Made by a program: the position numbers and the translations under genes. Positions 1,032-32,828 of a stretch of DNA of 34,468 nucleotides are shown one piece after another (within the stretch, counting starts at the first letter, position 1; every line of letters begins with the position of its first letter). The stretch is from Bdellovibrionales bacterium (GTDB taxonomy: Bacteria; Bdellovibrionota; Bacteriovoracia; Bacteriovoracales; Bacteriovoracaceae). The notes beneath the pieces are model-generated. The model did no database searches. It saw only the letters and a list, made by a program, of their open reading frames with translations, and was not told where the DNA came from. The DNA is taken from the NCBI GenBank assembly GCA_023250815.1, contig JAHEZZ010000007.1, positions 1 through 34,468 on the forward strand, given 5' to 3'.

Positions 1032-1757
1032 ATGAACGAAAAAAATATTTATCATCTCACATTTGATGAAATTGACTCGACTCAAGAGTGGTTGCGCAAA
1101 AATTATAATCACCAGAGCTATGAGAACTCGCCCAACCTTCTGGTTTCCACTAAAGCACAAACTAAAGGAATTGGACGACAAGACAGAGAATGGGCCCATT
1201 CAAAACATTCACTAGCCTTTTCTTTTATCATAGACCCAGCAGAAATTATTTTTAAAACGCCCTTAGAAATGGCAGTACAGTGTGCACTCTTTTTTAAATT
1301 AAAATTCCATTTAACTATAAAGTTAAAATGGCCTAACGATCTTATGAAGAATGACAAAAAATGCGGGGGAATCATTTGCCATTCTGTAACCAGAAATAAA
1401 AAAGAATTTATTATTGTCGGGATTGGAATAAATCTCAATGAAAAAAGTGAGTCCATGCCTTGCCAAGAATATCCAAGCGGAAAAAGTTCACTACAAATAG
1501 AAAAGTTGATTGAAAATTTCCAGCACAATATACCATTTGATTTTTATCATTATCTTCTAGGGAATCGACTAGATGACCTTCGCATTACAGAAGAATGGCA
1601 CAAAAACTGTTGCCATCTAAATCGCAAAATTAAAACTCATCATGACAAAAATATAATTGAAGGGATTTTTATTGGTATCGGAAATCAAGGTCAAGCCATT
1701 TTAGAAATAAACAATCAAAAAATTGAAATCTTTAGCGGTGAATTTTCTTTGACCTAA
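1032..1757 (+). CDS. birA: Biotin-[carboxyl-carrier-protein] ligase, no DNA-binding domain
   Basis: Activates biotin with ATP and attaches it to the acceptor lysine of biotin carrier proteins; a likely client is the carrier at 29277-29795. The 241 residues are the catalytic and C-terminal domains only: the protein starts at FDEIDSTQEWL (substrate-contact region) with no winged helix, so it is a group I ligase and not a biotin-operon repressor. The KWPNDL motif (about residue 98) and GIGINLN (about 133) are clear. The biotinyl-AMP loop, GRGRRGRKW in E. coli, reads GIGRQDREW here. The Arg matching E. coli R118 and the Trp remain, but other glycine/arginine positions are changed. The ATG follows GGAG at short spacing. 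The stop overlaps the stop of the convergent gene by three to four bases. Confidence 0.9.
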   Translation: MNEKNIYHLTFDEIDSTQEWLRKNYNHQSYENSPNLLVSTKAQTKGIGRQDREWAHSKHSLAFSFIIDPAEIIFKTPLEMAVQCALFFKLKFHLTIKLKWPNDLMKNDKKCGGIICHSVTRNKKEFIIVGIGINLNEKSESMPCQEYPSGKSSLQIEKLIENFQHNIPFDFYHYLLGNRLDDLRITEEWHKNCCHLNRKIKTHHDKNIIEGIFIGIGNQGQAILEINNQKIEIFSGEFSLT

Positions 1758-3058
1758 ATTTCTTTTGATATTTCTTCAATTTCTTTTTTTATTAAATTTT
1801 CCGCCAAATCTGGAATTACTTCCCATGCAATTTTCTCTATCGTTTGTTTGCAATAATCTTTGACAAATTGCTCTAAGACAGGAGCAAGAGAAGTTTTGAG
1901 TTTTTCAATTAATTCTTCATTCATCTCAAATTTTTTGCTTGCTTCTTGAGTCGTCGATTCAATCTTAGGGACAATTTTCGCATTTGTTTCTTGTGTACTC
2001 GTCTTAGAGAGATCCAGCTTATTTGATTCAATTATTTCATCTGCCTGCCAAAGATCTTCTTGGCCCATTTCAGATAGGATTTCTTTTTCTAGCGCTTCGT
2101 TTGGTTTTGATTTTATATCTAATGACAAAGGTCTCAAGCTTGAATCTTCTTCATCAAAATCTTCAACCAAATCAGACATCGGAACTAGTTTTGGAGCGGA
2201 AGAAATAGCAGGGATACTTTCAACTTTATCACTAAGACCACGGGAATGTGCCTCAAGATCTGGAAAATCTAAATCCTCTTCTTTTGGATATACTAAAGTA
2301 GCGGCATCAATTTTGCTCTTTTTGACAGGAGAAACTCTAGATGGAACTTCCTGTGATCCACTGCCTGACTCACCAATAATTCCAGGGATGCTCATTCCCC
2401 AATCTTCTAGTTCTTTTGATAATTGATTATCTTTATCAGCTTTAATCATAGACCCTGCTAAACCCGTATTTTTTTTGTCTGTTGATACCGCAATTTGCTC
2501 ATGAGTAACATGCCAGTCTTCACTTTCTTCTTCAATTTTATCACTTTCTCTACTTAAACTTTGATCGATCTTAAACTCTTTTGTTACTTCGTGTGCCGGA
2601 TTAACTTCCTCTTCATCCCCATTCTCATTCTCAGAAATTTCAGATGCTGAAGAAATCTCAACTTCTCCTTCGCCGACATTTGAAGATATTTTTTGCGTAC
2701 TAGTTAAGTTTTTACAAAGTTCTATAAATTTTTGACCATCAAATGGTTTTACAATTTTATCAACAGCTCCGGCCTCAAATATGGCATTTTCGTTGATATT
2801 ATCAAAAGTTCCAAGCATTACCAAAATAGGAGTTCCAGCAGAAATAGTCGCCGTTTGTCGAATGAGATCATACCCCGTACGAGCATTAGATAAATTAAAA
2901 TCTAACAAAATTAAAGAATATGTATTATTTTTTATTTTTTGAATAAGGTCAGACTCATTTAAACACTCATCTATTTCATACTTTAAATTTTTTAGTGTAA
3001 TACTAATAACTTTTTGAATAGTTAAACTATCATCAGCGACGAGAATCTTTGCGGCCAT
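1754..3058 (-). CDS. CheY-like receiver protein with long acidic linker and conserved C-terminal helix
   Basis: Single-receiver protein without a recognisable output domain. The receiver spans about residues 1-125: KILVADDS supplies the acidic pair D9/D10, D53 in LILLDF is the predicted phospho-acceptor, and the lysine is in DKIVKPF. The usual switch Thr/Ser is missing: PILVMLG replaces the common P-x-x-x-(L/V)-T-A, so it has Leu at that position. Residues about 130-370 are a low-complexity, Glu/Asp/Ser-rich, probably disordered linker. The last 50 residues (KLKTSLAPVLEQFV onward, then WEVIPDLAENLIKKEI) form an amphipathic helical tail that I recall from similar deltaproteobacterial receivers. 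The frame stays open to 3079, but I start at 3058 because CGGAGATCTT lies right before that ATG. It is the last gene after the FHA/PP2C genes and has its own candidate promoter, so it may be independent. Confidence 0.85.
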   Translation of the reverse strand: MAAKILVADDSLTIQKVISITLKNLKYEIDECLNESDLIQKIKNNTYSLILLDFNLSNARTGYDLIRQTATISAGTPILVMLGTFDNINENAIFEAGAVDKIVKPFDGQKFIELCKNLTSTQKISSNVGEGEVEISSASEISENENGDEEEVNPAHEVTKEFKIDQSLSRESDKIEEESEDWHVTHEQIAVSTDKKNTGLAGSMIKADKDNQLSKELEDWGMSIPGIIGESGSGSQEVPSRVSPVKKSKIDAATLVYPKEEDLDFPDLEAHSRGLSDKVESIPAISSAPKLVPMSDLVEDFDEEDSSLRPLSLDIKSKPNEALEKEILSEMGQEDLWQADEIIESNKLDLSKTSTQETNAKIVPKIESTTQEASKKFEMNEELIEKLKTSLAPVLEQFVKDYCKQTIEKIAWEVIPDLAENLIKKEIEEISKEI

Positions 3059-3088
3059 AAGATCTCCGAAAAAAAACATCCAAAATCT

Positions 3089-3116
3089 ATTTTACAGAAT
3101 AAGATCGGCTTATCAA
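3089..3116 (-). promoter_or_regulatory. Candidate promoter for the CheY-like gene
   Basis: On the minus strand, TTGATA (3111-3116; 5/6) is followed by a 16-base spacer and TAAAAT (3089-3094; 5/6). It lies in the 83-base gap between the end of the phosphatase gene and the start at 3058, about 25-30 bases upstream of the start codon. This suggests the receiver can be expressed apart from the upstream FHA/phosphatase genes. Confidence 0.5.
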
Positions 3117-3141
3117 CCAGAATGGCGAATCTTCAATCAAA

Positions 3142-3882
3142 TTAAAATTGAAATAACAAGGCCGTTTGATTATCAAAATTCCCTCGAGAATTGGCAAAGT
3201 CCATTAAACCATTTATTTTCTCACGTAAACCTGGAGTCTTTTTCTCAATTATAAATTTAATTTCCTCTAAATTTAGTCGATTAAAAATTCCGTCTGAAAG
3301 CATAATGATAATATCATCATCTTGCGGTCTAAATTCTCTAATCTGGAAATGTAAATCTTCAAAAAGACCAATTCCACTCATTGGTAAAGAAGAGTAATAT
3401 GGTCGATAATTATCCTTGGAAATGGCCTCAAAGCTGTCGGGCGTAATGATCGTTTTAATTTCACCTTTTCGATAAAGATAGACTCCCATATTTCCCACGG
3501 AGACAAAAGTTCCAATGGAATCAGAAAGTGCAAAACCGACAACTGCGGCACCACCGCGCTTTGAAATTTCAAGTTGCGAATTCGATGAAAAGATTTCTTT
3601 GTGTGCCAAATGAAAAGCATTAATGAGAGCATTGGCCTCAAGCAAATATTTATGACTATAAAAAAAAGGCATGGTCGAATCTGGATCAGTCGCCACTTTT
3701 GTATAAAATATTTTTAAAAGTTCTTTTACTCTAGCTGTTGTCTTATCTCCTATTCCGATTCCTCCAAATCCATCGATTGCAAAAAATAAATTATTAACCA
3801 AATCAACTTCAAAGTCGTCTTCATTTAGTTCCAAGACAGGGCCGTGATGAGTTTTTGCAGAATATGACTTTAATAAATTCAT
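3142..3882 (-). CDS. PP2C-like Ser/Thr protein phosphatase
   Basis: Cytoplasmic metal-dependent phosphatase of 246 residues, the size of a bare PP2C domain; no signal peptide or membrane segment. Motifs in order: LNEDDFEV (about 19-26, the R-x-x-N-x-D-x motif without the Arg), FAIDGFGG (about 34-41, metal-binding Asp), GGAAVVGF (about 109-116), IIMLSDGIF (about 192-200, second metal Asp) and DNQTALLF at the C-terminus (third Asp). The GDSR motif reads GNMG (about 132-135), so one acidic residue linked to the third metal in bacterial PP2Cs is absent. It starts two bases after the stop of the large FHA gene. PP2C next to FHA proteins points to removal of phosphothreonine from FHA targets (inference). 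A catalytically weakened or binding-only role cannot be excluded. Confidence 0.8.
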   Translation of the reverse strand: MNLLKSYSAKTHHGPVLELNEDDFEVDLVNNLFFAIDGFGGIGIGDKTTARVKELLKIFYTKVATDPDSTMPFFYSHKYLLEANALINAFHLAHKEIFSSNSQLEISKRGGAAVVGFALSDSIGTFVSVGNMGVYLYRKGEIKTIITPDSFEAISKDNYRPYYSSLPMSGIGLFEDLHFQIREFRPQDDDIIIMLSDGIFNRLNLEEIKFIIEKKTPGLREKINGLMDFANSRGNFDNQTALLFQF

Positions 3883-3884
3883 CT

Positions 3885-6194
3885 TTACTCCAAATAATCT
3901 CTAAGTCGATCACTCGATTTTTTATAATAATCACTATCTGAAGGTGAAATCTGCTGAACCTCTTGAAACTTTTCTTTGGCATCACTAAATAAACTTAAAG
4001 ATTCAGAAATAATGGCCTCTCGATAAACTTTTTTGGCACGACTATTTAACAAATCTCTAATTGCCACAGTTTCTTCGAGGGCCTCAGATGAGATTGGATC
4101 ATATACTAAAACTTGAATATAATTTTCATAAGCGCCTTTTAAATCTTGGCCTTCTTTCATAGATCTTGCCTTCCCAAGAAGAGGCCCAGTTATTTCTGAT
4201 AACATCTTTTTAGACTCTTCAAGCATACCCTGCCCATCTTTCATAAGATCTTCATCCATTTCTTGAATTTTCATAAAGTCTTGCAACTTAACAATTGCTT
4301 TAAACCATTCTTTTTGTAAAAAGAGAGTTTTTCCTGGCTGCAATTGGGATACTTTTCTTTTTCTATCTGCTTCCTTCTGTGCTAATTCCAAGGCTATGCG
4401 ATCTTGTTCTTTCTTCCAAGCATCCAGTTCGATTTTCAATTGTGGCACATCGAAGTTTTCTGGATCCAAAGAAAGAACCTGGGTAAAAAGCGCTTCTGAA
4501 ACAGGAACATTTCTTTCTTTCGTGGACTCCTTTGCCTTTTCTACTAATTCTTTTACTTTAATTTGTCGCAAACGCCTCTCTTCATCTTCTCGTCTTTTCT
4601 TTTCAAGTTCTTCTAATTTGATCAAGCCCTCTTTGGAAGATTCTTTAAGCGATCTCGCTTCTTTAAAATTTGAAGTCACTGCAAATATTTTATCTAACTC
4701 CATAATTGCTTCGCTATATTTCCCAACTGCGTGCAATTCCTTAGCAAGTTCGTAAACTTGATTCATGTGCTCTTCTACTTCTTTACTTAACGGCTTTTCC
4801 TTTTTTTTCACATCTCCAGCAATTTGCTGACGTTCATCTTTTTTTTCACCATTTGCTCCATCTTCTTTTTTTTCATTCTCAGCAGTTTTTTTATCTTTGC
4901 TTTTTTCTCCTTCCGGAGGCGGAGAATCTGTCAAAAGCATTAAAAGTGCGCCAGCAACAACTGTATAAATTAATGCTTTCTTCCTTTTAGCAGGATCTTT
5001 TAAAATTCTTTTTATAAAGCTTTTTTCTTCTGGGCCACTCGATTGTTCGGCATCAGATTTTAAGCTTATCCCTTGACTTGCGGCATCCTCTTCATCATCA
5101 ACATTAACTTCGACAATTTCTTCAACTTCAACTTCCTGATTTGTTTCAACAGGCATCAACCGTTCATCTTCACTTCTAAGCAAGTCGGAAACAACTCTAA
5201 TTGTAAAAGTTGTACTGCCAATTACAAATTCGTCACCATTGCTAATTTCGCCCTTTTTTACCCTAGATCCATTTAAAATTGTTCCGTTGGATGAATTTAA
5301 ATCTTCTACCGTACAAGTTGTATAATCTTTTCTAACAACAGCATGAACTGATGAAACTTCATCGTCATTTAATACAATCTGACATCTTTTAGGATCTCTT
5401 CCAATATAAGTTTCTGGCAAATCAAGAGGGTATCTTTCATAGGGTGCAAATTCTCCAAATAGCTCCAATTCAAATTTAGCAAATGATCTAAAAACTTTTG
5501 TACCGCCTTCAGTTTCAACGTCACTTTCGACCGCTGGCAAATTATTAGGATCAATCCCCGGATGTTCCTGGTGCTCATTTCCTGGTTCACTGTTTGCCTG
5601 ACCTAAATCATGATTCTCTGCCTCGCTCGAGGCAGCGTGCTCCTCTCCTTCTGAAATATGATGATCATTTAATTCCCCTTCGCCAGAAACAGCTCCATGA
5701 TCCAGGGGCGCAAGGGATGCTTCATCAGAACCTGGATCTGTATCATGCTTGGCAATTTCAGAATCCTTTCCAGCTTCAAATGCTGTCTCAGTTAAAAGAT
5801 GAGAATCTTCTTCTTTACTCACCGAGCTTTCATTGCCCAAAATAGGTTTGGCCAATACCGACGATGGTGCTTTATTTGCTTCTGAACGAAAATAAAATGT
5901 TAAATTAAATGCCGAAAAAGAAATAACGTCATTGGGAGATAGTTCTGACTCTTTGACGACCACTCCATTAAGAGACATCGGAACAGAAGGAGAAATATTT
6001 TTTATCTTCCAAACACCAGCATTAAAATTTAACTCCCCTTGCTCTCGAGATATTTTAGGGTCATCAATTTGGATTGTGCAATCTTCTGATCTCCCGATTA
6101 AAAAAGTAAGCGAAGCATTTTCTAACAATGCTACTTCATTTGTTAAATCAACAAAATTTAAAGCCAGATCCCCTTTTTTAATCTCTATTTTCAT
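3885..6194 (-). CDS. Membrane protein with two FHA domains, acidic linkers and TPR-like coiled C-terminus
   Basis: 769 residues. FHA domain 1 is at about 1-103 (LIGRSEDC, then SREQ where most FHAs have SxxH, and SLNG). A His/Glu/Ser-rich, probably disordered linker follows (about 104-235). FHA domain 2 is at about 240-336, with all landmarks: YIGRDPKRC, VSSVHA, LNSSNGT. A single transmembrane segment is near 406-422 after the basic stretch KDPAKRKK, so the FHA half should be cytoplasmic (positive-inside) and the C-terminal half periplasmic. The C-terminal about 300 residues begin with a Lys/Glu-rich tract and then contain TPR-like helical pairs and a long charged coiled coil (EELEKKRREDEERRL). 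FHA domains bind phosphothreonine peptides. The start ATG overlaps the previous stop as ATGA. Probably a scaffold between a phospho-signal and an envelope machine; partner unknown. Confidence 0.85.
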   Translation of the reverse strand: MKIEIKKGDLALNFVDLTNEVALLENASLTFLIGRSEDCTIQIDDPKISREQGELNFNAGVWKIKNISPSVPMSLNGVVVKESELSPNDVISFSAFNLTFYFRSEANKAPSSVLAKPILGNESSVSKEEDSHLLTETAFEAGKDSEIAKHDTDPGSDEASLAPLDHGAVSGEGELNDHHISEGEEHAASSEAENHDLGQANSEPGNEHQEHPGIDPNNLPAVESDVETEGGTKVFRSFAKFELELFGEFAPYERYPLDLPETYIGRDPKRCQIVLNDDEVSSVHAVVRKDYTTCTVEDLNSSNGTILNGSRVKKGEISNGDEFVIGSTTFTIRVVSDLLRSEDERLMPVETNQEVEVEEIVEVNVDDEEDAASQGISLKSDAEQSSGPEEKSFIKRILKDPAKRKKALIYTVVAGALLMLLTDSPPPEGEKSKDKKTAENEKKEDGANGEKKDERQQIAGDVKKKEKPLSKEVEEHMNQVYELAKELHAVGKYSEAIMELDKIFAVTSNFKEARSLKESSKEGLIKLEELEKKRREDEERRLRQIKVKELVEKAKESTKERNVPVSEALFTQVLSLDPENFDVPQLKIELDAWKKEQDRIALELAQKEADRKRKVSQLQPGKTLFLQKEWFKAIVKLQDFMKIQEMDEDLMKDGQGMLEESKKMLSEITGPLLGKARSMKEGQDLKGAYENYIQVLVYDPISSEALEETVAIRDLLNSRAKKVYREAIISESLSLFSDAKEKFQEVQQISPSDSDYYKKSSDRLRDYLE

Positions 6195-7156
6195 TTAGAT
6201 GTTTCCTGATAATTTGTACACTTAATCTCGCCCTCAGAAAGCCCCATCTTTTCTTCTAGCTGCTTAATCTCCTCCGCTGCTTTTTTATAACGATCATCAT
6301 CTGAATAACCTTCAAGCAATCTGATAATATTACAATAAACTTGTACTGCTCCCATGTATTTTAAAGACTCTTGATCACGACGGGCCTTAATAAGACTTTG
6401 TTCAATTTCGCGATCGAGCGATTGCCTTGTTTTATTGAGATAAAAACTAGCACGCCCATTATTAGGGCTCATCACTAGCGCTAAATTAAATTCCGCCATT
6501 GCTCTAAAATAATTTCCTTCGCGCATTTCACGAAGCCCTCTGTGAATAATCATATCTAGTTTTTCTTGAATTTCTTTGTTCTCTTCATCCTTCTTTTTAT
6601 TCCCAACAGTAAACTCATCTGTAACTTCTTTAAATTTTTTATCGTCACTTTTTTTCTTTACCCCACTATTATCTTCCCCTCCCATAAAAAGCATAAACAA
6701 AACCAAAATTCCCACAATCAAAAACATTAAAGGTTTTTTATTAGTATTTTGTTTTGTATCTAAATCATCATCTTTTTTTTCTTCTAAGGGAGCTACTACT
6801 TCTAGGACTTGCAATACATTGTATTTAAAAACAGTTTGACCAATAATTATTTTATCACTGTCTTTTAATGTGTATTGAGTAACTTTTAAATCATTGACCA
6901 TCGTTCCGTTTTGAGATTTCAAATCTGTTAGGACAAAGTCATTCCCCATTTTTACAATTTCAGCATGAACTTTTGAACATTTGCCGTCCATAATTTTAAC
7001 ATCGGCAGTATCACCGCGACCAATCGTAATGCGATTTGATTTTATATAATACGATACTCCTTTGTTTTCACCAGTCATGCACAGAAGACGATGATGCTTC
7101 CCGGATGCCGTTGGAGGCCGTATATCTTTAACTATTGCTATATTCCCACTCTTCAT
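6191..7156 (-). CDS. FHA domain protein with one membrane segment and TPR-like tail
   Basis: 321 residues. The FHA domain is at about 24-115 with TIGRGDTADV, CSKVHAEI (the SxxH motif) and LKSQNGT, so the phosphothreonine pocket looks intact. A Lys/Asp linker leads to one hydrophobic segment at about 142-159 (PLMFLIVGILVLFMLFMG). The rest, about 190-310, is charged and helical with a TPR-like unit (GNYFRAMAEFNLALVMSPNN). The layout is a shorter version of the next gene downstream: FHA inside, TPR outside. The gene overlaps the downstream start by four bases and begins 15 bases after the FHA/PAS gene, so all three should be co-transcribed. Function is not known; the context suggests assembly or regulation of a Tad-type apparatus. 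Confidence 0.82.
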   Translation of the reverse strand: MKSGNIAIVKDIRPPTASGKHHRLLCMTGENKGVSYYIKSNRITIGRGDTADVKIMDGKCSKVHAEIVKMGNDFVLTDLKSQNGTMVNDLKVTQYTLKDSDKIIIGQTVFKYNVLQVLEVVAPLEEKKDDDLDTKQNTNKKPLMFLIVGILVLFMLFMGGEDNSGVKKKSDDKKFKEVTDEFTVGNKKKDEENKEIQEKLDMIIHRGLREMREGNYFRAMAEFNLALVMSPNNGRASFYLNKTRQSLDREIEQSLIKARRDQESLKYMGAVQVYCNIIRLLEGYSDDDRYKKAAEEIKQLEEKMGLSEGEIKCTNYQETSK

Positions 7157-7171
7157 TTATCTTTTTTATCC

Positions 7172-8731
7172 TCATTCATCTTTTATCATCGAAACCAAAA
7201 ACCCTTTCGCAAACTTGTCTTTTCCAATCATTGCTACAACATGCAATTTATATGGTCTGCCCTGCAATTCATATTTTCCTTGTTGTCCTACGCCACCATT
7301 ATTTGCCGAACCATCACAAAGCTCGATCAAAGTTGCCGCAAAACCTTGTTCCCTTGTCAAATCAAGTAAACTAACACCAATTGAAGCAGCTTCTCTAATT
7401 CCAGTAATATCTTCTGCGGCGGGATTTATCGCTTGAAGATTTTTTTGATTATCAAGAACCATTGCAGGGCCAGCAACACAGGCATAAAAATATTTTAAAG
7501 ATTCAATATAAGGCCCGGCCTCCTCTTCTTGAACCGTCTCATCCTTCCCAACACTTTGAAATTCTCTTAGCCTTTGAAGTGCTCCATTAATAATCGTTTT
7601 TAGAGCGTTCATTTCTTCCATTAATAAACTGCCTTCTATCGCACGCTTTTTGCCCTTCAAAACTTCTTCAATTTCATGTTTTAGTTCTTCCAAGTGCCGG
7701 ATTGTCATAAAATATACAATCCCAAAAAATATTATTGCTACGATAGCTGAAATAATTAACGATTCTAAAAATGCTTTTGAGTTTTTTGTTGCTTCAATGG
7801 TTAAAGATTTAGGTTTAAAACGAATTGCAATAATCCCAACCGCTTCACTGCTGCCCATTTTGCTATTAAATGCCATCACCTTATGGCCAATTCCAATCTG
7901 ACCATTATCTAAAAGCTGAACAAGTGTATTGGAGTCTCTATTTATTCCTGTCGTCACCCACTCTTTTGCTTTTATTGAAAAAGGATCATTAATATATTCA
8001 TTTAAACGTGCGATAGGTCTTACAATTCGCCCTTCAAGATCATACAACTCATAGGATTCAACTCCTTCTTCAGATTCCATAAAATTCGTATCAACACTGT
8101 CGATGTTTTTTTGCTCTAATGCTCGAGCATTGATGCGTCCAATTTCTTCTGCAAAATGTTGCCCCCGAAGTGCTACTTCTCTTAAAAGAATCCTCTTGCT
8201 ATCATCGAGAACTGGAAAAATAGTAAGCGTGATCGTGGTTAATACAAAGATTGAAAGGACAATTGCAAAAAGAACACGCCATTCATATTCTTGATTAATA
8301 CCATAAAGGAACGGCATTAATTTATACTTAAATAAATAAATGATTTTACCGGCCAAATTCTGCGGAGGTGCGGGAGGTTTTGTAAAATCAGCTTCCTCCA
8401 CTGCCTGTTTAACAACCGCTTTTTTAATTATTTTTTTCTTTTCTTGGATTTTTATCAATTGAAAAATAATATCTGGAAGAGAAATTTTATCTCCTGCTTT
8501 CAGTGTTGCCCTTTTAACTATTTTGCCGTTGACAAATGTACCATTTGAACTGCCCAGGTCCTGTACATAGGGGGTATCATCGGCCACCGTAATATTCATA
8601 TGTCTTTTTGAAACACCATCAACATCAATTTGAAAAGTACAAGCACCATCCCTGCCAAAAATATTATCACCATTAGAAAGCGTAAACTCTTTCCCCCGTA
8701 ACTTTCCTCCAACAACTACTACTTTATACAT
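7172..8731 (-). CDS. FHA - transmembrane sensor - PAS protein
   Basis: 519 residues. The N-terminal FHA domain is at about 1-95 with NIFGRDGAC, VSKRHMNI and LGSSNGTFVNG, so pocket residues are kept. A Pro-rich linker (TKPPAPPQN) follows, then TM1 at about 151-175, an extracytoplasmic region of about 150 residues (about 176-320; contains YELYDLEGRIV, a PAS/dCACHE-like strand pattern), and TM2 at about 323-343. A helical linker EELKHEIEEVLKGKKRAIEG, HAMP-like in position, leads to a PAS-like domain at about 414-519 (PAMVLDNQKNLQAINPAAEDITGI). There is no kinase, cyclase or HTH output domain, so a signal must pass to partners, perhaps through FHA binding. The gene overlaps the DUF192 stop by 13 bases. 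The domain order is unusual. Confidence 0.82.
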   Translation of the reverse strand: MYKVVVVGGKLRGKEFTLSNGDNIFGRDGACTFQIDVDGVSKRHMNITVADDTPYVQDLGSSNGTFVNGKIVKRATLKAGDKISLPDIIFQLIKIQEKKKIIKKAVVKQAVEEADFTKPPAPPQNLAGKIIYLFKYKLMPFLYGINQEYEWRVLFAIVLSIFVLTTITLTIFPVLDDSKRILLREVALRGQHFAEEIGRINARALEQKNIDSVDTNFMESEEGVESYELYDLEGRIVRPIARLNEYINDPFSIKAKEWVTTGINRDSNTLVQLLDNGQIGIGHKVMAFNSKMGSSEAVGIIAIRFKPKSLTIEATKNSKAFLESLIISAIVAIIFFGIVYFMTIRHLEELKHEIEEVLKGKKRAIEGSLLMEEMNALKTIINGALQRLREFQSVGKDETVQEEEAGPYIESLKYFYACVAGPAMVLDNQKNLQAINPAAEDITGIREAASIGVSLLDLTREQGFAATLIELCDGSANNGGVGQQGKYELQGRPYKLHVVAMIGKDKFAKGFLVSMIKDE

Positions 8732-9081
8732 TCAAACTCCAATTCATCGCCAACATTAAAATGATCTCCAATTTTTCCATTTTTTAATTCAAGTACTTTT
8801 TGAGAACTAAAATATAATGCGCTTAAGCCCCATGGTTTAAAATTTTTTATAATTTTTATAATTTGATTTTTTTTATTAACAAAAATAACATCTATGCTAA
8901 ACTTCATAAAAAAAGTATGAATAGAACTACAAGGCTCAAGAATCAAACAATCACAATTGGGCATATCCATTTTAAACATTAAACCTAATAACCTTTCATA
9001 AAATGAAGTTGCAACCTTGGCATTTTCACAAAGGATTGGCCCTCCATTTTTTTTCTTAATTCTAAAAATTTTTATATTCAT
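8719..9081 (-). CDS. DUF192 family protein
   Basis: 120 residues, the usual size of a single DUF192 domain. Family features are A-x-x-x-x-ER-L-x-GLMF near residue 25-36 (TSFYERLLGLMF), the HTFFMKFSIDVIFVNKKNQI block (about 55-74) and a C-terminal ELKNGKIGDHFNVGDEL. No signal peptide is visible, whereas many members are secreted, so this copy is probably cytoplasmic. The biochemical function of DUF192 is not established to my knowledge. The start ATG directly follows the tadC stop codon (zero spacing) and the stop lies inside the next gene, so it is tightly embedded in the tadC-FHA operon. Confidence 0.8.
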   Translation of the reverse strand: MNIKIFRIKKKNGGPILCENAKVATSFYERLLGLMFKMDMPNCDCLILEPCSSIHTFFMKFSIDVIFVNKKNQIIKIIKNFKPWGLSALYFSSQKVLELKNGKIGDHFNVGDELEFECIK

Positions 9082-10473
9082 CTATTTTGCCCTAAGCCCT
9101 AAAGCTTCTAAAATCATTGGAGCTGCAATCACTATAAAAACAGCAGGAGTAATAAAAAGAAGCATAGGAAATAATATTTTGGTAGCAGCAGTTGCACCTG
9201 CTTTTTCTGCCTCAGACGATTTCTTTTGACGAATTTCGACTGCCAATGCTTTTAAAATTGGCCCAATCGAAGCACCGACAGAATCGGCAGCAATCAAAGT
9301 AGCAGTAAAAGAAGTGATTTGAATCAAGTCAGTTCTCCAAGACATATTCCTTAATGATTCGGCCCTGCTCGCTCCAATTTTTATTTCTTTTATTACAATT
9401 CCAAACTCTTCAGTAAGTGCACTGGCCTTTGCTTTTTCAATAACCTTCCCCATCGCTGCAATAAAATCCAGACCAGCTTCCACAGAAAGGGCCAACATAT
9501 CGACACAAAATGGCATCGACATAATGATTTCCTTTTGCCTCTGCTGAATTTTTCCGTTAACCCATATATCAGGATAAATAAACCCCACTGCTGCGACAAA
9601 AGGAATCGCTGACAATGGCCAATCTGCCTCCATAAAAGAACGAACACCCAAAAAAACGATAGGAAATCCCACAATCAGAAAAATTTTAAATGAAAAAAAA
9701 TCTTCCGTACTTAAAACATCTGTCAATCCAGCGGCAGCTAATTTTCTTCTATATTTTTCTTTGATTTTTTTCTTATTCTTCATACTGGAAACAATCGGAG
9801 ATACATATCTTCGAAAAAATGGCCTTGAATATTTTAAAATAAATCCATGTTTCCCAATATCATCCTTATTACTTTGCCCCTCATCCATTTGCTCAGATGC
9901 CTTAAACTGACTTTCTTCTTGAAACATTGTTCTAGTGACAATAAAAGTTGCAAGGCCAATTAAGATTAGAGATGTGTAAAGAAGAAGATCAGATTCTTCT
10001 TTTTTAAATTTAACTTTCGTACAACCTTCTGCTAGTCCTAAGTCGCAGGCCTTCTGATAAGCTTCCGTAGCGTTAAGGCTATTGCCTTCAATCGTTAAAA
10101 TATTTCCCAAACGAACACAGGCAAGAGGATATTTATTTTTGCATACTTCTAAAAATACAGCTTTCGCCCCAGCTAAATCTTTCGTTTTTTCCAAATATTC
10201 TGCGTAAGGAACACAAGAACTTAATTTTTTTTCTTTTGTTTTATATTCTTCTTTAAGCCTTTTATCATTTTTAGAATCTTTTTTATCTTGATATTTTCTT
10301 TTTAAATCACAATTCTCATAATGCCTCACCGCTGCTTCTTTTGCATTTTCAGGGTTCATATCTTCCACTGACGGGCCACCCAAATCAGTTGAATCAAGTT
10401 CTTGCGAATATATTTTAGGAACAAATAAAAAATAAATTATAATTAGTAAAAAATTAAAGAAGAGTCTTTTCAT
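9082..10473 (-). CDS. tadC: TadC/GspF-family pilus inner-membrane protein with N-terminal Cys-rich Sel1/TPR-like domain
   Basis: 463 residues, about 140 longer than common TadC proteins (about 320). Residues 1-23 are a signal peptide-like hydrophobic stretch. Residues about 35-155 are helical with regularly placed cysteines (C55, C87, C111, C119, C143, C151) and Sel1-like units such as ATEAYQKACDLGLAEGC. A membrane segment at about 163-181 links this to a TadC core with membrane segments near 261-300 and the type II secretion F domain at about 325-440 (SMPFCVDMLALSVEAGLDF, then FTATLIAADSVGASIGPIL), ending in a hydrophobic segment. TadC works with TadB and the TadA ATPase to assemble Flp-type pili. 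No other tad gene is in the window. It heads the operon leading into the DUF192 and FHA genes. The fusion needs a check against homologues. Confidence 0.85.
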   Translation of the reverse strand: MKRLFFNFLLIIIYFLFVPKIYSQELDSTDLGGPSVEDMNPENAKEAAVRHYENCDLKRKYQDKKDSKNDKRLKEEYKTKEKKLSSCVPYAEYLEKTKDLAGAKAVFLEVCKNKYPLACVRLGNILTIEGNSLNATEAYQKACDLGLAEGCTKVKFKKEESDLLLYTSLILIGLATFIVTRTMFQEESQFKASEQMDEGQSNKDDIGKHGFILKYSRPFFRRYVSPIVSSMKNKKKIKEKYRRKLAAAGLTDVLSTEDFFSFKIFLIVGFPIVFLGVRSFMEADWPLSAIPFVAAVGFIYPDIWVNGKIQQRQKEIIMSMPFCVDMLALSVEAGLDFIAAMGKVIEKAKASALTEEFGIVIKEIKIGASRAESLRNMSWRTDLIQITSFTATLIAADSVGASIGPILKALAVEIRQKKSSEAEKAGATAATKILFPMLLFITPAVFIVIAAPMILEALGLRAK

Positions 10474-26177: not shown

Positions 26178-28325
26178 ATGACGAAAACACCAAAATATAA
26201 TCCGCCAATGCCCGACAAAAACGATTGGGAAAAATTAGTAAATAAAGAAACAAAAGGAAAATCATCCGAAGAATTATTATTTCAAACTGCTGAAAAAATA
26301 AAAATTAAACCTCTCTATACTCAAAATGATATTAAAAATATAAATTTAGAATTCCCTGGAATAGAACCCTTTACAAGAGGTCCAAGAGCGACAATGTACA
26401 GGGTAAGACCTTGGACAATAAGACAATACGCCGGTTTTTCAACTGCAGAAGAATCAAACCAATTTTATAAAAAAACGCTTGAAAAAGGTGGGCAAGGAAT
26501 TTCTGTCGCTTTCGATCTGGCCACTCACCGTGGCTATGATTCTGATCATCCAAGAGTAAAAGGAGACGTTGGAAAGGCTGGCGTTGCCATTGACTCGGTT
26601 GAAGATATGAAAATCCTTTTTAATCAAATTCCACTTGATACTACTTCTGTTTCTATGACAATGAATGGTGCCGTCCTTCCCATTCTTGCTAATTATATTG
26701 TTGCTGCCGAAGAGCAAGGCGTGCCACAAGAAAAGTTAAGCGGTACAATTCAAAATGATATTTTAAAAGAATTCATGGTGAGAAATACTTATATTTATCC
26801 ACCAACTGCATCTATCAAAATTATTTCCGATATTATCTCATACACTTCAAAACATATGCCGAAGTATAATTCCATTTCTATCTCCGGTTATCATATGCAG
26901 GAGGCAGGAGCACATTCGTCATTAGAGTTAGCCTATACTTTAGCTGACGGTATGGAATATATTAGAGCTGCCACTTCAAGTGGTTTGCATATTGATGAAT
27001 TTGCTCCAAGACTTTCATTTTTCTTTGGAATTGGAATGAATTTCTATATGGAAATCGCAAAACTTCGGGCCGCCAGATTTCTCTGGTCTAAGATTGTCAC
27101 AAATTTTGGCGCAAAAAGTCCCGAATCAAAAATGCTCAGAACTCATTGTCAAACCTCTGGCTGGTCACTCACGGAAAAAGACCCTTATAACAATATTATT
27201 CGCACAACAATCGAAGCCATGGCGGCGGTATTTGGAGGGACACAATCTTTACACACCAACTCGTTCGACGAAGCAGTTGCTCTTCCAACCGATTTTTCTG
27301 CGAAGCTTGCAAGAAATACCCAATTAATAATTCAAGAAGAAAGCCAAATTTGCAAAGTCGTTGATCCTTTTGGTGGATCATACATGATGGAAAGTTTAAC
27401 CCAAGAATTAATTTCTAAGGCAGAAGAGATCATCGCAGAAATAGAGGAACTCGGCGGCATGAGTAAGGCCATTGAATCGGGGCTACCCAAACTTCGAATT
27501 GAAGAAGCCTCAGCAAACCGACAGGCCATGATCGATAAAGGTCAAGATGTCATCGTAGGTGTAAATAAATATAAAGATAAAAGCAATGAACAAATTGAAA
27601 TTCGAGAAATTGACAACAATAAAGTTCGTGAAATACAAATTGCGAGATTAAAAAAAATTAAATCTACAAGAGACAATCATAAAGTTGCAGAATGCTTAAA
27701 TGCACTAACTGAATACTCTAAAAAAGGAATTGGAAATGCCCTAGACCTAGCAATTAAAGCAGCAAGAGCAAGGGCCACCGTCGGTGAAATTTCATTTGCA
27801 TTAGAAACAATATGGGGAAGATATCAAGCACATTCTCAAACCGTTTCTGGTGTCTTTGAAAGAGCGATGAAGAATGAGGAGAAATGGATGTCACTAAAAG
27901 TTGAAATAGAAAATTTTTCAAAAAAATTTGGCAGGAGGCCTAGAATACTTATTGCAAAGATGGGGCAGGATGGACATGACAGAGGAGCAAAAGTCATCGC
28001 TTCATCTTTCTCTGACTTAGGTTTTGACGTCGACCTCTCACCTTTATTTTCAACCCCAGAAGAAGTCGCCAAAGTTGGCATAGAAAATGATGTTCACATT
28101 ATAGGCATTTCTTCTTTGGCCGCCGGCCATAAAACGTTGGTTCCAGATTTAATTGCCGAACTTAAAAAGAAAAACTCCAGCGATATTATGGTCGTTATTG
28201 GTGGAGTAATCCCAAAACAAGATTATGATTTTTTAATAAAGTCTGGCGTTGCATTTATTTTTGGGCCAGGAACACCTGTAATGGAATCAGCAAAACAAAT
28301 AATTGAAAAACTTTTGGCAAATTAG
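26178..28325 (+). CDS. Methylmalonyl-CoA mutase, single-chain catalytic subunit
   Basis: Adenosylcobalamin-dependent enzyme that interconverts (R)-methylmalonyl-CoA and succinyl-CoA. 715 residues with both domains. The TIM-barrel substrate domain (about 45-560) has [18 protein letters not shown] (about 76-93), [39 protein letters not shown] and [15 protein letters not shown]. The cobalamin-binding domain (about 580-712) has [13 protein letters not shown] (DxHxxG, His as lower cobalt ligand, near 599) and [18 protein letters not shown] precedes the ATG. meaB follows after two bases. It should be the last step of propionyl-CoA conversion started by the carboxylase operon on the other strand. 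No epimerase is in the window. Confidence 0.97.
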
Positions 28326-28327
28326 TT

Positions 28328-29272
28328 ATGACCATTGATTTAAAAAAAATAAAAACAGGTGATCGCAGAGAATTGGCCAAAGCGATTACACTTGTTGAAG
28401 ATAGTAGAAGTGATTCCAAATTAGAAGTAGAAAAACTTTTTAAAAACATCCCGATTGACAATAAAACTATTCGTATCGCCATCACTGGCATTCCTGGAAG
28501 TGGAAAATCATCACTAATCGAAAAGCTTGGTCTTTATGCTATCAAAGAAGGAAAAAAGGTCGCCGTACTGGCGATTGATCCTTCTAGCCCTATTAACGGG
28601 GGAAGTATTCTAGGCGACAAAATTCGCATGGAACAATTATCCTTGGAAAAAAATGCTTTTATAAGGCCCTCTCCAAGCAGAGGGCATTTAGGCGGTGTGG
28701 CCTTTTCTACTTTTGAAACTATATTGCTCTGTGAATACGCAGGATTCGATTTTATACTGATTGAAACAATTGGGGTTGGACAATCAGAATTTGAGGCCAA
28801 AACCTTATCAGACATTTTTTTATATCTTGCAGGCCCCAATACAGGTGATGAAATACAAGGCATAAAAAGAGGAATTTTAGAATTAAGCGATATAATCGTT
28901 GTTAACAAACACGACGGTGATAGCAAAATCCAAGCTGAAGTAACTAAAGGGCAACTTGAAAATTCTCTTCACATAAAAGGCATCGATAATATAAACATCT
29001 TACTAGCATCGGCGATAAAAAATGATGGCATTTTAGAAATTTATAATCTCCTTTTATCCTTAAGCAAAAATAAAAACTTTTTTGAAAATAGGAAAAAACA
29101 AGTTGATAACTGGATCATAAATCTCACTCTTCATTATATCTCAGAAGAAATGAAAAATTCAAAAAATATAAAGATGAGACTTGCTGAGTTGAAAGATGAA
29201 ATTTGGATGAGTAAAAAAAGCAGTTATGATGCTGTAAAATCAATTATAAAGGAACTAAAAAAAGATATTTAA
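28328..29272 (+). CDS. meaB: MeaB-type GTPase, methylmalonyl-CoA mutase chaperone
   Basis: G3E-family P-loop GTPase that gates cofactor loading and protects the mutase from inactivation. 314 residues. The Walker A is GIPGSGKSSLIEKLG (about 56-70). AIDPSSPINGGSILGDKIRM (about 82-101) contains the metal/switch region. SRGHLGGVAFSTFETI (about 117-132), LIETIGVGQSE (about 148-158) and VVNKHDGD (the NKxD base motif, about 196-203) are classic MeaB. The start lies two bases after the mutase stop with little Shine-Dalgarno, so translation is probably coupled. It ends four bases before the convergent biotin carrier gene. Confidence 0.95.
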   Translation: MTIDLKKIKTGDRRELAKAITLVEDSRSDSKLEVEKLFKNIPIDNKTIRIAITGIPGSGKSSLIEKLGLYAIKEGKKVAVLAIDPSSPINGGSILGDKIRMEQLSLEKNAFIRPSPSRGHLGGVAFSTFETILLCEYAGFDFILIETIGVGQSEFEAKTLSDIFLYLAGPNTGDEIQGIKRGILELSDIIVVNKHDGDSKIQAEVTKGQLENSLHIKGIDNINILLASAIKNDGILEIYNLLLSLSKNKNFFENRKKQVDNWIINLTLHYISEEMKNSKNIKMRLAELKDEIWMSKKSSYDAVKSIIKELKKDI

Positions 29273-29276
29273 ATAA

Positions 29277-29795
29277 TTATTTTTCCTCAATAATTTCCAA
29301 GAGCTTTACACCTTGCTCAAGAGCATCGCCTTCTTTTACAAAAATGTTTTTTACGACACCATCAATCTGCGTTTTAATTTCGTTTTCCATTTTCATCGCT
29401 TCTAAAATAATCACCGTTTGGCCGGCAATTACCTTGTCGCCAACTTTCACTGCAATTTTCACTGCTTTCCCAGGCATTTGTGTAACTAAACTTCCTGAAT
29501 TAGCAGCTGCCCCACCAGAAGGCCTAAATCCTCTATGCAGATTAAACACTCTATTCACATTCAAAAGTTTTGTCGGGATATCTTGCCTTGCTAACTTTTC
29601 CCAATGTATTTGATCAAAAGACGTAAAATATTGACCAGCAAGTTTTCTTAAAAATATCTTTTCTAATTTTTCATAATTAGTTTTAGATTTGTCTAAAGCT
29701 TTAAAATGAAATTCAACGATGTCAGATGTGTGCCTAATCGTCCTAATTAAATCTAAAATATATTCTTCTTTTTCTTTCGTTAAATAGTATCTCAT
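29277..29795 (-). CDS. Biotin carboxyl carrier protein of the acyl-CoA carboxylase
   Basis: 172 residues. The C-terminal about 75 residues are a biotinyl domain with LEAMKMENEIKTQIDGVV; the biotin-accepting lysine is K135. An Ala/Gly/Ser hinge (SGGAAANSGS) precedes it. The N-terminal about 95 residues (YILDLIRTIRHTSDIVEFHF onward) are charged and helical and do not look like the E. coli AccB N-terminus; they may be the part that holds the carrier to the other subunits, replacing the BT domain of fused PccA chains. TAGGAGCAGTA before the ATG gives a strong Shine-Dalgarno. It is third in the carboxylase operon, eight bases after the biotin carboxylase stop. BirA at 1032-1757 is the expected modifying enzyme. 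Confidence 0.92.
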   Translation of the reverse strand: MRYYLTKEKEEYILDLIRTIRHTSDIVEFHFKALDKSKTNYEKLEKIFLRKLAGQYFTSFDQIHWEKLARQDIPTKLLNVNRVFNLHRGFRPSGGAAANSGSLVTQMPGKAVKIAVKVGDKVIAGQTVIILEAMKMENEIKTQIDGVVKNIFVKEGDALEQGVKLLEIIEEK

Positions 29796-29803
29796 TACTG
29801 CTC

Positions 29804-31237
29804 CTAAACACCCATTTTGCGCGCTTCTATCCCCGCCAAAATTCTATAAATCTTCTGATAATCAACATCTACATTTACTTTGGCATTCGGTTTATTTTCA
29901 TTAATAAACCCAGTTGTATAATTCCCTTTTACAAATCTCTCATCATTTAAAATAATTTTATGAAGTGGAATATTTGTTTTTAGGCCTTCTAACAAAAGCC
30001 CATCCAGCGCTGCTCGCATTTTTCTGAGGGCCACTGATCGAATCAATCCTTTGGTCACAAGTTTTCCTACCATCGGATCAAAATCTGGAGTAACTTTTAA
30101 GCCCCTATAAAGACAATGATCAAACCGAGTACCTTGAGGAAATATGGTCTCAAAGGCCTGGACTTCACCTGGCGCCGGAAGCATTGTTATTGGATCTTCC
30201 GCACAAATTCTACATTCAATGGCATGCCCTGTTCTTTTTATCCATTCCTGAGATGGAATGCCCAAATCCTCACCGAAAGCTGATTGGATCATACATACAA
30301 TTAAATCTATTCCCGTAATTTCTTCAGTTATGGGATGTTCAACTTGAATTCTGGTATTCATTTCAAGAAAATAAAAACTTTTATCTTCCCCCATAATCAT
30401 TTCAACGGTCCCTGCAGAATCATATCCAACGGCCCTTGCAAGCATGACTGCAGTCTCACAAACCTTTTTTCGAAGGGCCTCATCTTCTCCAATAAAAGGA
30501 GAAGGGGCTTCTTCAATTATTTTTTGATTTCGACGTTGAATTGAACACTCTCGCTCAAAAAAATGAAAAACATTTCCTCTTTTATCTGCAAGGATTTGAA
30601 CTTCAATATGATGAGGATTAACAATAAATTTTTCGACTAACAACTCTCCATTGTTAAATGCAGCTTTTGCTTCTCTGCCAACTGCTTCAAAATTATTTTT
30701 AACATCTTGATCATTATGACAAATTCGCATCCCGCGCCCACCACCACCGTGTACCGCTTTAAGAAGAACAGGATATTTAATATCTTTGGCAATTTTAATC
30801 GCCTCATCGATCGTATTAATCGCTCCAATCGATCCAGGGACAACTGGTATTCCCGCCTCTTTTGCACACTGTTTTGAAATGGCCTTATCTCCCATTAACC
30901 TCACAGCTCGAGAATTTGGCCCTATAAATACCACTCCAAGTTTTTCAATTTGCTCGGCAAATTCAGTGTTTTCAGAAAGAAAACCATAACCGGGATGAAC
31001 TGCATCGATTTTATATTCTTTAATTAATTTTACAATATTGGGGACATTAAGATAGGTTTCGGCATTTGTTTTTCCCGATAACCTCACCCATTCATGACAA
31101 TATTCCAAATGGGTTGCATGTGGTTCATTATCAGTCCAAACTCCAACTGCAATATGTTTAAGTTCTCGTATTGCTTTAGCAATACGAGTTGCAATCTCAC
31201 CTCTATTAATAATAAGTATTCTTTTTTGTTCTGTCAT
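29804..31237 (-). CDS. Biotin carboxylase subunit of acyl-CoA (propionyl-CoA) carboxylase
   Basis: ATP-grasp enzyme that carboxylates the biotin of the carrier using bicarbonate. 477 residues, containing only the carboxylase domains, with no fused biotinyl region. ILIINRGEIATRIAKAIREL at the N-terminus, HPGYGFLSEN, FIGPNSRAVRLMGDK, KAVHGGGGRGMRI (ATP loop, near 160-172) and FLEMNTRIQVEHPITEEITG (about 289-308) are the standard motifs. It is closely related to both AccC and PccA; the operon context with a PccB-like carboxyltransferase and the adjoining mutase supports propionyl-CoA use, but acetyl-CoA or broad acyl-CoA activity is possible. AGGAATTT precedes the ATG. Spacing to the carboxyltransferase gene is six bases. 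Confidence 0.93.
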   Translation of the reverse strand: MTEQKRILIINRGEIATRIAKAIRELKHIAVGVWTDNEPHATHLEYCHEWVRLSGKTNAETYLNVPNIVKLIKEYKIDAVHPGYGFLSENTEFAEQIEKLGVVFIGPNSRAVRLMGDKAISKQCAKEAGIPVVPGSIGAINTIDEAIKIAKDIKYPVLLKAVHGGGGRGMRICHNDQDVKNNFEAVGREAKAAFNNGELLVEKFIVNPHHIEVQILADKRGNVFHFFERECSIQRRNQKIIEEAPSPFIGEDEALRKKVCETAVMLARAVGYDSAGTVEMIMGEDKSFYFLEMNTRIQVEHPITEEITGIDLIVCMIQSAFGEDLGIPSQEWIKRTGHAIECRICAEDPITMLPAPGEVQAFETIFPQGTRFDHCLYRGLKVTPDFDPMVGKLVTKGLIRSVALRKMRAALDGLLLEGLKTNIPLHKIILNDERFVKGNYTTGFINENKPNAKVNVDVDYQKIYRILAGIEARKMGV

Positions 31238-31243
31238 AAATTC

Positions 31244-32806
31244 CTAGAGTTGAATGTTGCCATGTTTTCTGCGTGGAAGCTCAACTTTTTTATCTTTTAG
31301 CATCACCAAATATTCATAAATTCTAAGCCTAGTTTCTTCTGGCAAAATAATTGCATCTAAATAACCAAGCTCTGCTGCTTGATATGGATTGGCAAAATTT
31401 TCTTCATAATGGGCAACTAGTTCAGCTTTTTTTTCTTCATATTTTTTTCCTGTAAGACCGGCCAATTCATGTCTAAAAATAATATTAACCGCGCCATCTG
31501 CCCCCATTACTGCGATTTCAGCTGTGGGATATGCAAGATTAACATCAGCACGAATATGTTTTGAGGCCATCACATCATAAGCACCACCATATGCTTTTCG
31601 TGTAATAACAGTAATCAAAGGAACGGTGGCCTCCGAGTAGGCATAAAGTAGTTTTGAGCCGTGTTTTATAATTGCACCATGCTCTTGAATCACTCCAGGT
31701 AAAAACCCCGGAACATCAACAAATGTTACAATAGGAATATCAAATGCATCACAAAATCTAATAAATCGGGCTGCTTTAACAGAAGCATCAATATCAAGAA
31801 CACCTGCTAAAAAATTAGGTTGATTAGCGACAACTCCAATTTTTATTCCACCAATTGAAGCAAAACCACAGATTATATTTTTGGCAAAAGACTGATGGAC
31901 TTCCAAAAATCTTCCATCATCAACCACATCCAAAATAATTTCTTTAATATCATATGGTTTTTTAGAACTCGAAGGAATAACATTTTTAATTTTCGTGTTA
32001 TCGCGATTTGGTAAATCAGAAGTATACACCGCTGTTGGCATTCGATAGTTTGATGAAGGAATATAGGTCAATAATTCTCTTACTCTCTCAAAACAATCAT
32101 TCTCATCTCTACATTTAAACTGAGCGACCCCGGATTTATCTCCATGGGCACTCGCTCCTCCCAATTCTTCTTTTGTTATTTCTTCATGAGTAACCGCTTT
32201 GATAACATCTGGGCCAGTCACAAACATATAAGATGTTTGTTCAACCATAAAAATAAAATCTGTGATGGCCGGAGAATAGACCGCCCCACCAGCACAGGGG
32301 CCCATGATAAGAGAAATTTGCGGTATAACTCCAGAGCACTTCACATTGCGATAAAATATTTCGGCATAGCCAGCAAGCGACTCCACTCCTTCTTGAATTC
32401 TTGCCCCACCAGAATCATTAATTCCAATAATAGGCATTCTCGATTCAAGACACATATCCATGATCTTGCAGATTTTTTTAGCATGAGCGGCACCGAGGGC
32501 CCCTCCCCAGCAGCTAAAATCTTGGGAAAAAATTCCTACTTTTTGCCCATTAATTCGAGCAATACCAGTAATAACCCCGTCACCTAAAAATTTGTGAGCA
32601 CTCATTCCAAATTCAGTACAACGATGAGTTACAAAGCGATCAAATTCCAAAAAAGAACCTGGATCAACAAGTCTTTCAATTCGCTCTCTGGCCGAATATT
32701 TGCCCTGAGCGCGTTGTTTTGCGCTCCGCTCCGCTCCGCCACCCATTTCTGATTGTTTTCTAAGACTAATTAATTTATTGCGCTTTTCTTCTAATAGATC
32801 GGTCAT
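31244..32806 (-). CDS. pccB: Acyl-CoA (propionyl-CoA) carboxylase carboxyltransferase, beta subunit
   Basis: Transfers the carboxyl group from biotin to propionyl-CoA to give (S)-methylmalonyl-CoA. About 520 residues, the usual length of PccB/MmdA. Two crotonase-like halves: ARERIERLVDPGSFLEFD and GINDSGGARIQEGVESLAGY (N-half), GPCAGGAVYSPAITDF (oxyanion hole), then FVDVPGFLPGVIQEHGAIIK and KAYGGAYDVMASKH (C-half). Two ATGs are adjacent (32807-32809 and 32804-32806); the second has the better spacing from AGGAG. The Shine-Dalgarno and first ATG lie inside a 9-bp hairpin (32808-32828). It is the first gene of the carboxylase operon and lies about 100 bases downstream of a sigma-54 activator gene on the same strand. 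Confidence 0.95.
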   Translation of the reverse strand: MTDLLEEKRNKLISLRKQSEMGGGAERSAKQRAQGKYSARERIERLVDPGSFLEFDRFVTHRCTEFGMSAHKFLGDGVITGIARINGQKVGIFSQDFSCWGGALGAAHAKKICKIMDMCLESRMPIIGINDSGGARIQEGVESLAGYAEIFYRNVKCSGVIPQISLIMGPCAGGAVYSPAITDFIFMVEQTSYMFVTGPDVIKAVTHEEITKEELGGASAHGDKSGVAQFKCRDENDCFERVRELLTYIPSSNYRMPTAVYTSDLPNRDNTKIKNVIPSSSKKPYDIKEIILDVVDDGRFLEVHQSFAKNIICGFASIGGIKIGVVANQPNFLAGVLDIDASVKAARFIRFCDAFDIPIVTFVDVPGFLPGVIQEHGAIIKHGSKLLYAYSEATVPLITVITRKAYGGAYDVMASKHIRADVNLAYPTAEIAVMGADGAVNIIFRHELAGLTGKKYEEKKAELVAHYEENFANPYQAAELGYLDAIILPEETRLRIYEYLVMLKDKKVELPRRKHGNIQL

Positions 32807-32807
32807 C

Positions 32808-32828
32808 ATTTTCTCCTGGGGAGAAAAT
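32808..32828 (-). promoter_or_regulatory. Hairpin covering the pccB ribosome binding site
   Basis: ATTTTCTCC, loop CCA, GGAGAAAAT on the mRNA strand is a perfect 9-bp inverted repeat with a 3-base loop. The right arm contains the Shine-Dalgarno (GGAG) and the first two bases of the first ATG. If formed in the mRNA it would block ribosome entry, so the site could act as a translational switch or an attenuator for the carboxylase operon. Confidence 0.55.

Follow-up and report, generated by a model that had tools for sequence, protein, structure and literature searches.

We analysed a 34,468-nucleotide stretch of a Bdellovibrionales bacterium (assembly GCA_023250815.1, contig JAHEZZ010000007.1, positions 1 to 34,468; hereafter the window) that carries, on its reverse strand, a TadC-type platform gene followed by genes for a DUF192 protein, three FHA proteins (which we call FHAPAS, FHA1 and FHA2) and a PP2C-type phosphatase. 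In our judgement these six genes probably encode an FHA-based, phosphothreonine-responsive inner-membrane subassembly of a Kil-type Tad (type IVc) pilus used for predation. This operon, nearly phylum-wide among predators, bears on how predatory bacteria couple prey contact to the firing of a killing pilus. An earlier reading of the same DNA, made from its letters alone (the sequence-only reading), had proposed a Tad-linked module with FHA domains able to bind phosphothreonine, and such a module is supported as real and conserved by the linkage to tadC and the FHA motifs described below.

Conservation of the operon and its continuity with the tad genes

Beyond the window lineage, we sampled many other families with one or two genomes each, giving 23 families with the window's own included. 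The order TadC, DUF192-sized gene, FHAPAS, FHA1, FHA2 and, in most, a gene in the PP2C slot recurs in 22 of the 23, a clustering far beyond chance, and outside the window lineage the flanking genes differ between families. The exception is family f14 (loci L100 and L103, genome G029), the only sampled family where the module was not found, despite a genome rated 100% complete. The PP2C is not recognisable in loci L097 and L098, and coverage of either TadC or the downstream end is incomplete in L085, L088 and L099, owing to short contigs or the lack of a TadC call. In the window lineage the module order holds in each of the 23 loci fetched, as far as their contigs reach; next come the receiver gene, then BirA, encoded on the opposite strand, and RNase PH, and the neighbourhood is syntenic as a whole (MreB, NagZ, BirA, RNase PH).

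In five loci (L082, L083, L084, L095 and L101) the main tad genes come next on the same strand; the module runs directly into them and so belongs to the tad locus. The downstream genes recognised by Pfam are TadE, RcpC/CpaB, a secretin and a ParA-T2SSE (TadZ-TadA) fusion in L101, TadB in L082, and TadA and TadB fused into a single 917-aa chain in L095 (15625-18375); the positions of TadA and TadB in genomes G044, G087, G023 and G003 agree with this continuity. In the remaining families, for example in Bdellovibrio-type genomes, TadA-TadB lie at another chromosomal place, and the window itself shows no linkage with TadA, TadB, a secretin or RcpC. The sequence-only reading had pointed to gene order around TadC as the place where its module could fail, should the FHA genes usually be unlinked from tad genes; the opposite was found, with linkage to tadC in 22 of the 23 families and five loci that abut the main tad genes. 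A T2SSE/T2SSF pair on contig C251 of the source genome was rejected as the missing tad genes, because its 570-aa ATPase and its F protein belong with GspE/PilB and GspF/PilC. A single CpaF-like ATPase fragment turned up in that genome, on contig C71 and without an FHA domain; it is doubtful as the main TadA and may be a paralog; complete relatives have a 720-760-aa TadZ-TadA beside TadB. A 503-aa frame in genome G003 (contig C2, 44871-46142) holds both FHA and T2SSE, like the FHA-ATPase fusion KilF of Myxococcus.

The TadC protein that heads the operon (463 aa, 9082-10473) has a T2SSF domain of the platform type at residues 325-449 (PF00482, 56 bits), and the same protein heads the module beside the tad genes in relatives. 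Its N-terminus in the window lineage bears a signal-like helix and a weak TPR/Sel1-like extension (about residues 1-160), which would lie in the periplasm; TadC of other families is mostly about 300 aa long. The DUF192 protein (120 aa, 8719-9081; PF02643, 1.5e-16) is the operon's conserved second gene, its slot being kept in distant loci as one blast family in 22 loci and confirmed by Pfam in the Bdellovibrio-type locus L080. Then come FHAPAS (519 aa, 7172-8731), FHA1 (321 aa, 6191-7156), FHA2 (769 aa, 3885-6194) and the PP2C-type protein (246 aa, 3142-3882), with spacings of 0, -13, 15, -4 and 2 bases from TadC downwards and a further 62 bases to a receiver gene. The sequence-only reading had drawn this anatomy of seven leftward open reading frames (ORFs) correctly in its domain content and spacings, as judged by ORF coordinates, Pfam and NCBIfam; Pfam matches back T2SSF in TadC, DUF192, the response-regulator domain and, spread over three proteins, four FHA domains. 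Upstream of tadC, a FliA-type promoter did not rise above shuffles in the window and most relatives, with only L095 and L083 standing out, and scans for sigma-70 promoters and terminators gave chance-level numbers.

FHA proteins, the PP2C slot and an unlinked kinase

Hydropathy gives two transmembrane helices in FHAPAS, and its AlphaFold model has the order FHA, transmembrane helix, extracytoplasmic alpha/beta sensor-like domain, second transmembrane helix and cytoplasmic PAS. This model (pLDDT 72, low pTM) was used at domain level only; its fold search was dominated by the FHA domain, with WalK-YycH (9a5d) as best long match at a weak TM-score of 0.23, and the PAS fold falls slightly under the Pfam cut-off. 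The sequence-only reading had given this protein a sensor-PAS; this needs correction, since the model puts the PAS in the cytoplasm after the second helix and makes the sensor-like domain outside a separate one. FHA1 has one transmembrane helix between its FHA domain and a TPR-like part, and in FHA2, with two FHA domains ahead of a transmembrane segment and an extracytoplasmic TPR part, the only candidate is a short one near residues 405-421, below the hydropathy threshold used. The FHA2 C-terminus is modelled as all-helical and TPR-like (pLDDT 88), with TPR proteins as structural neighbours at weak global TM scores. This transmembrane pattern fits the four cytoplasmic FHA domains in three membrane proteins that had been predicted.

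The FHA motif (GR, S..H, NG) is complete in FHAPAS, FHA1 and the second FHA domain of FHA2 of the window, and Q replaces the H of S..H in the first FHA domain of FHA2. It is retained in essentially all aligned homologs of FHAPAS and in nearly all homologs of the second domain of FHA2. The motif residues thus support FHA domains that are predicted to be competent for phosphothreonine binding, and FHAPAS and the second FHA domain of FHA2 are those that we would expect to read it. Locus L085 (3300-6343, genome G105) has a second short FHA gene (132 aa) ahead of its FHAPAS gene.

The window PP2C scores under the Pfam PP2C cut-off, and NCBIfam Stp1/PP2C covers its whole length (4.6e-17). A profile of the lineage's PP2C finds solved PP2Cs, the best being PppA (6jkv; 2.3e-10) from the phosphorylation pathway of the type VI secretion system (T6SS). 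The metal ligands D37, D197 and D237 are present in the window protein, and 35 of the 37 distinct loci from its lineage retain the full Asp triad. Phosphatase action is possible in that lineage, and we predict it for the window type.

As the sequence-only reading had stated, no kinase is found among the window ORFs. The only Hanks kinase detected in the source genome, with one transmembrane helix, lies elsewhere (contig C217), and 29 of the 30 genomes tested have such a kinase, G105 alone being without a detected one; looking for a Ser/Thr kinase outside the window, as that reading had suggested, thus leads to a conserved unlinked enzyme. The 14 kinases compared are homologous to that of the source genome (about 38-54% identity), and the Bdellovibrio-type kinase has a C-terminal PEGA domain. 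Meek et al. proposed Bd3148 as the predation kinase (PMC6733907), and the kinase of genome G069 is probably Bd3148, to judge from its mirrored map position. This one conserved kinase is our candidate for the phosphothreonine writer. On C217 (locus L041, genome G000; 311-2299 and 5902-6813) the Hanks kinase and a DgcB-like FHA-GGDEF gene lie about 3.6 kb apart, with three unrelated genes between them.

Taken as a mechanism, the TadC platform and the three inner-membrane FHA proteins would form a subassembly of the pilus, in which the FHA domains would lie in the cytoplasm and the TPR tail of two of the proteins would reach the periplasm and dock other envelope proteins, in the way that Bd0474 binds Bd0075. 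The FHA domains would read phosphothreonine written by the unlinked Hanks kinase, and pilus assembly or firing would follow prey contact sensed by the FHA-sensor-PAS protein, the kinase or both. The PP2C may reset or tune the phosphothreonine mark in the window lineage; in the Bdellovibrio-type clade it may have turned from an enzyme into a mere binding partner. We infer the dependence on phosphothreonine from motif conservation and the co-occurrence of the kinase; the link from kinase to FHA domains and the direction of control are likewise proposed on this basis.

Downstream of the PP2C gene, the receiver-domain protein (441 aa, 1754-3079) has a phosphoacceptor Asp60 and Lys111, and the usual switch Thr is replaced, beside an invariant GTFD motif. 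The gene is conserved at this position only in the window lineage, and we rejected it as a module member: it is a lineage-specific addition and does not belong to the conserved unit in which the sequence-only reading had counted it. Its end overlaps by 4 bases, in convergent orientation, the gene of the biotin ligase BirA (1032-1757). Further along the window, at 26178-32809, genes for methylmalonyl-CoA mutase, a MeaB-like GTPase and biotin-dependent carboxylase subunits are clustered (named by eye from ORF translations).

Evidence against the proposal and rival explanations

Several results weigh against the proposed phosphothreonine-responsive pilus subassembly. In the window PP2C the third-metal Asp of the GDSR motif is replaced by N131 and the phosphate-binding Arg by Leu17, both invariant in a 14-sequence alignment of the lineage. 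Among loci of the other families outside the Bdellovibrio-type clade, 10 of 24 retain the full Asp triad; none of the 12 Bdellovibrio-type loci does, and there even the first Asp is gone. FHA1 has lost its Asn-Gly in most Bdellovibrio-type families (10 of 12 loci). No Hanks kinase lies beside or near the operon in any of the 30 genomes tested, and no data on phosphorylation of the module proteins were found. The remaining tad genes, which the sequence-only reading had suggested looking for in the flanking chromosome, do adjoin the module in the five relatives, but the main tadA/tadB locus (TadB/TadZA) was not found in the source genome, which is 86% complete.

The dead form appears to be a PP2C homolog, an assignment based on synteny and on a comparison of profiles (hhalign probability 97.6%, E 3.5e-12), and Bd0475, annotated as hypothetical, is probably a PP2C-fold pseudophosphatase. 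A tree built from concatenated FHAPAS, TadC and FHA2 groups the loci with the dead PP2C in one clade (support 1.0), with the f28 pair as its first branch; because the FHA1 motif is still present in this pair, the loss of the PP2C active site came first and that of the FHA1 motif later, once. PP2C has also eroded independently in other lineages without loss of the FHA1 motif. A strict co-degeneration of FHA1 and PP2C is weakened by this decay where FHA1 keeps Asn-Gly, joint loss being confined to one clade. As the metal site is erased in the whole Bdellovibrio-type clade, phosphatase activity cannot be the conserved function; binding or scaffolding takes that place, and PP2C cannot be essential as an enzyme. 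For the same reason a simple cycle of kinase and phosphatase cannot be the conserved mechanism. We hold only tentatively that a relay of kinase, FHA and phosphatase, akin to the threonine phosphorylation pathway (TPP) known from T6SS control, licenses the Tad platform in the inner membrane, and that its phosphatase, after losing activity in the Bdellovibrio-type clade, was retained there as a pseudophosphatase partner of the FHA proteins.

The loss of the PP2C active site across a clade that keeps the gene in place also suits an explanation in which the FHA domains are structural, as in SctD/YscD of type III secretion, and build phosphorylation-independent rings or connectors round TadC with PP2C as a vestigial scaffold. 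The FHA-transmembrane-periplasmic architecture, the overlap of PF16697 YscD matches with the FHA domains and the loss of the FHA1 motif in part of the dead-PP2C clade point the same way. We nevertheless consider it unlikely, since FHA outscores YscD in each of the three proteins and the phosphothreonine-contacting residues, for which a purely structural domain would have no use, are kept phylum-wide in FHAPAS and in the second FHA domain of FHA2. Alternatively, FHA and PP2C could belong to a general phospho-signalling operon, for example in cyclic di-GMP (c-di-GMP) or cell-cycle control, that shares its operon with tadC by chance. Such an arrangement would agree with the location of the remaining tad genes elsewhere in the chromosome in many families and with the part that Bdellovibrio FHA proteins also play in c-di-GMP control (DgcB, PMC6733907); it is made improbable by TadC standing strictly first in 22 of the 23 families, by the TadE-RcpC-secretin-TadZA(-TadB) continuity in five and by the predation defects of both Bd0474 and Bd0470 mutants (PMC6561027). 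That the clustering is regional synteny of one lineage without functional meaning has next to no probability: the neighbours of the module in the window lineage are syntenic too, but in other lineages the six-gene block persists amid entirely different flanks, which refutes the idea.

Published orthologs and closest systems

The operon is not undescribed, as the sequence-only reading had it, since it corresponds to Bd0470-Bd0475 of B. bacteriovorus (PMC12034629, PMC6561027), and the idea of phospho-signalling through FHA domains is in print as well (PMC8460266). The predation phenotypes and the contact between Bd0474 and Bd0075 come from papers on these positional orthologs, which we identified by order, domains and lengths: Bd0470 is TadC, Bd0473 (386 aa; FHA1) an FHA protein, Bd0474 (674 aa; FHA2) a double-FHA protein, both domains cytoplasmic, with a TPR domain outside the cytoplasm, and Bd0475 (228 aa; the PP2C slot) a hypothetical protein (PMC12034629). 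The products of 387, 684 and 228 aa at L080, from a one-contig genome, fit Bd0473-Bd0475. Transposon hits in tadC Bd0470 and in Bd0474 abolish predation at different steps, and the authors suggested that Bd0474 might be a component of the pilus machine (PMC6561027). A two-hybrid assay showed binding between Bd0474 and the TPR protein Bd0075, and a contact between Bd0473 and Bd0475 has been predicted (PMC12034629). Predation by Bdellovibrio requires type IVb pilin genes (PMC5430801). As far as searchable papers go, three points appear to be new: the phylum-wide conservation of the six genes and their continuity with tad genes, the assignment of the Bd0475 slot to PP2C, catalytically dead throughout a clade, and the exclusion of the receiver from the core.

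Bd0470-Bd0475, judged from the Bdellovibrio-type locus L080, shares with the window its order and domain types (TadC, DUF192, FHA, FHA-TPR, two-FHA-TPR, PP2C-fold slot). The window differs from Bd0470-Bd0475 in a PP2C that retains the metal site lost in the Bdellovibrio-type one, in its extra receiver gene and in the N-terminal extension on TadC. The Kil system of Myxococcus xanthus is likewise a Tad-derived predation machine unusually rich in FHA proteins, for which phospho-signalling was proposed by analogy with T6SS (PMC8460266); Kil has FHA fused to its ATPase KilF, whereas the one CpaF-like ATPase fragment seen in the source genome, which may be a paralog, is without FHA. The PpkA-Fha1-PppA pathway of T6SS shares the pairing of FHA with PP2C, and PppA is the best solved match of the window PP2C profile, but here there is no linked kinase, no T6SS gene was seen among the window ORFs read, and the FHA proteins are membrane-anchored with periplasmic TPR tails. 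Bdellovibrio DgcB (FHA-GGDEF), whose FHA domain binds a phosphothreonine peptide, is a predation protein gated by such a contact (PMC6733907), although it is a soluble cyclase and not a pilus component. SctD/YscD and GltG resemble the FHA proteins of the operon in a cytoplasmic FHA-like domain, one transmembrane helix and a periplasmic part; they differ in that the NCBIfam scores here are far below the cut-offs (12-18 bits against 86 for SctD, 30-41 against 650 for GltG) and in that the phosphothreonine residues are retained here.

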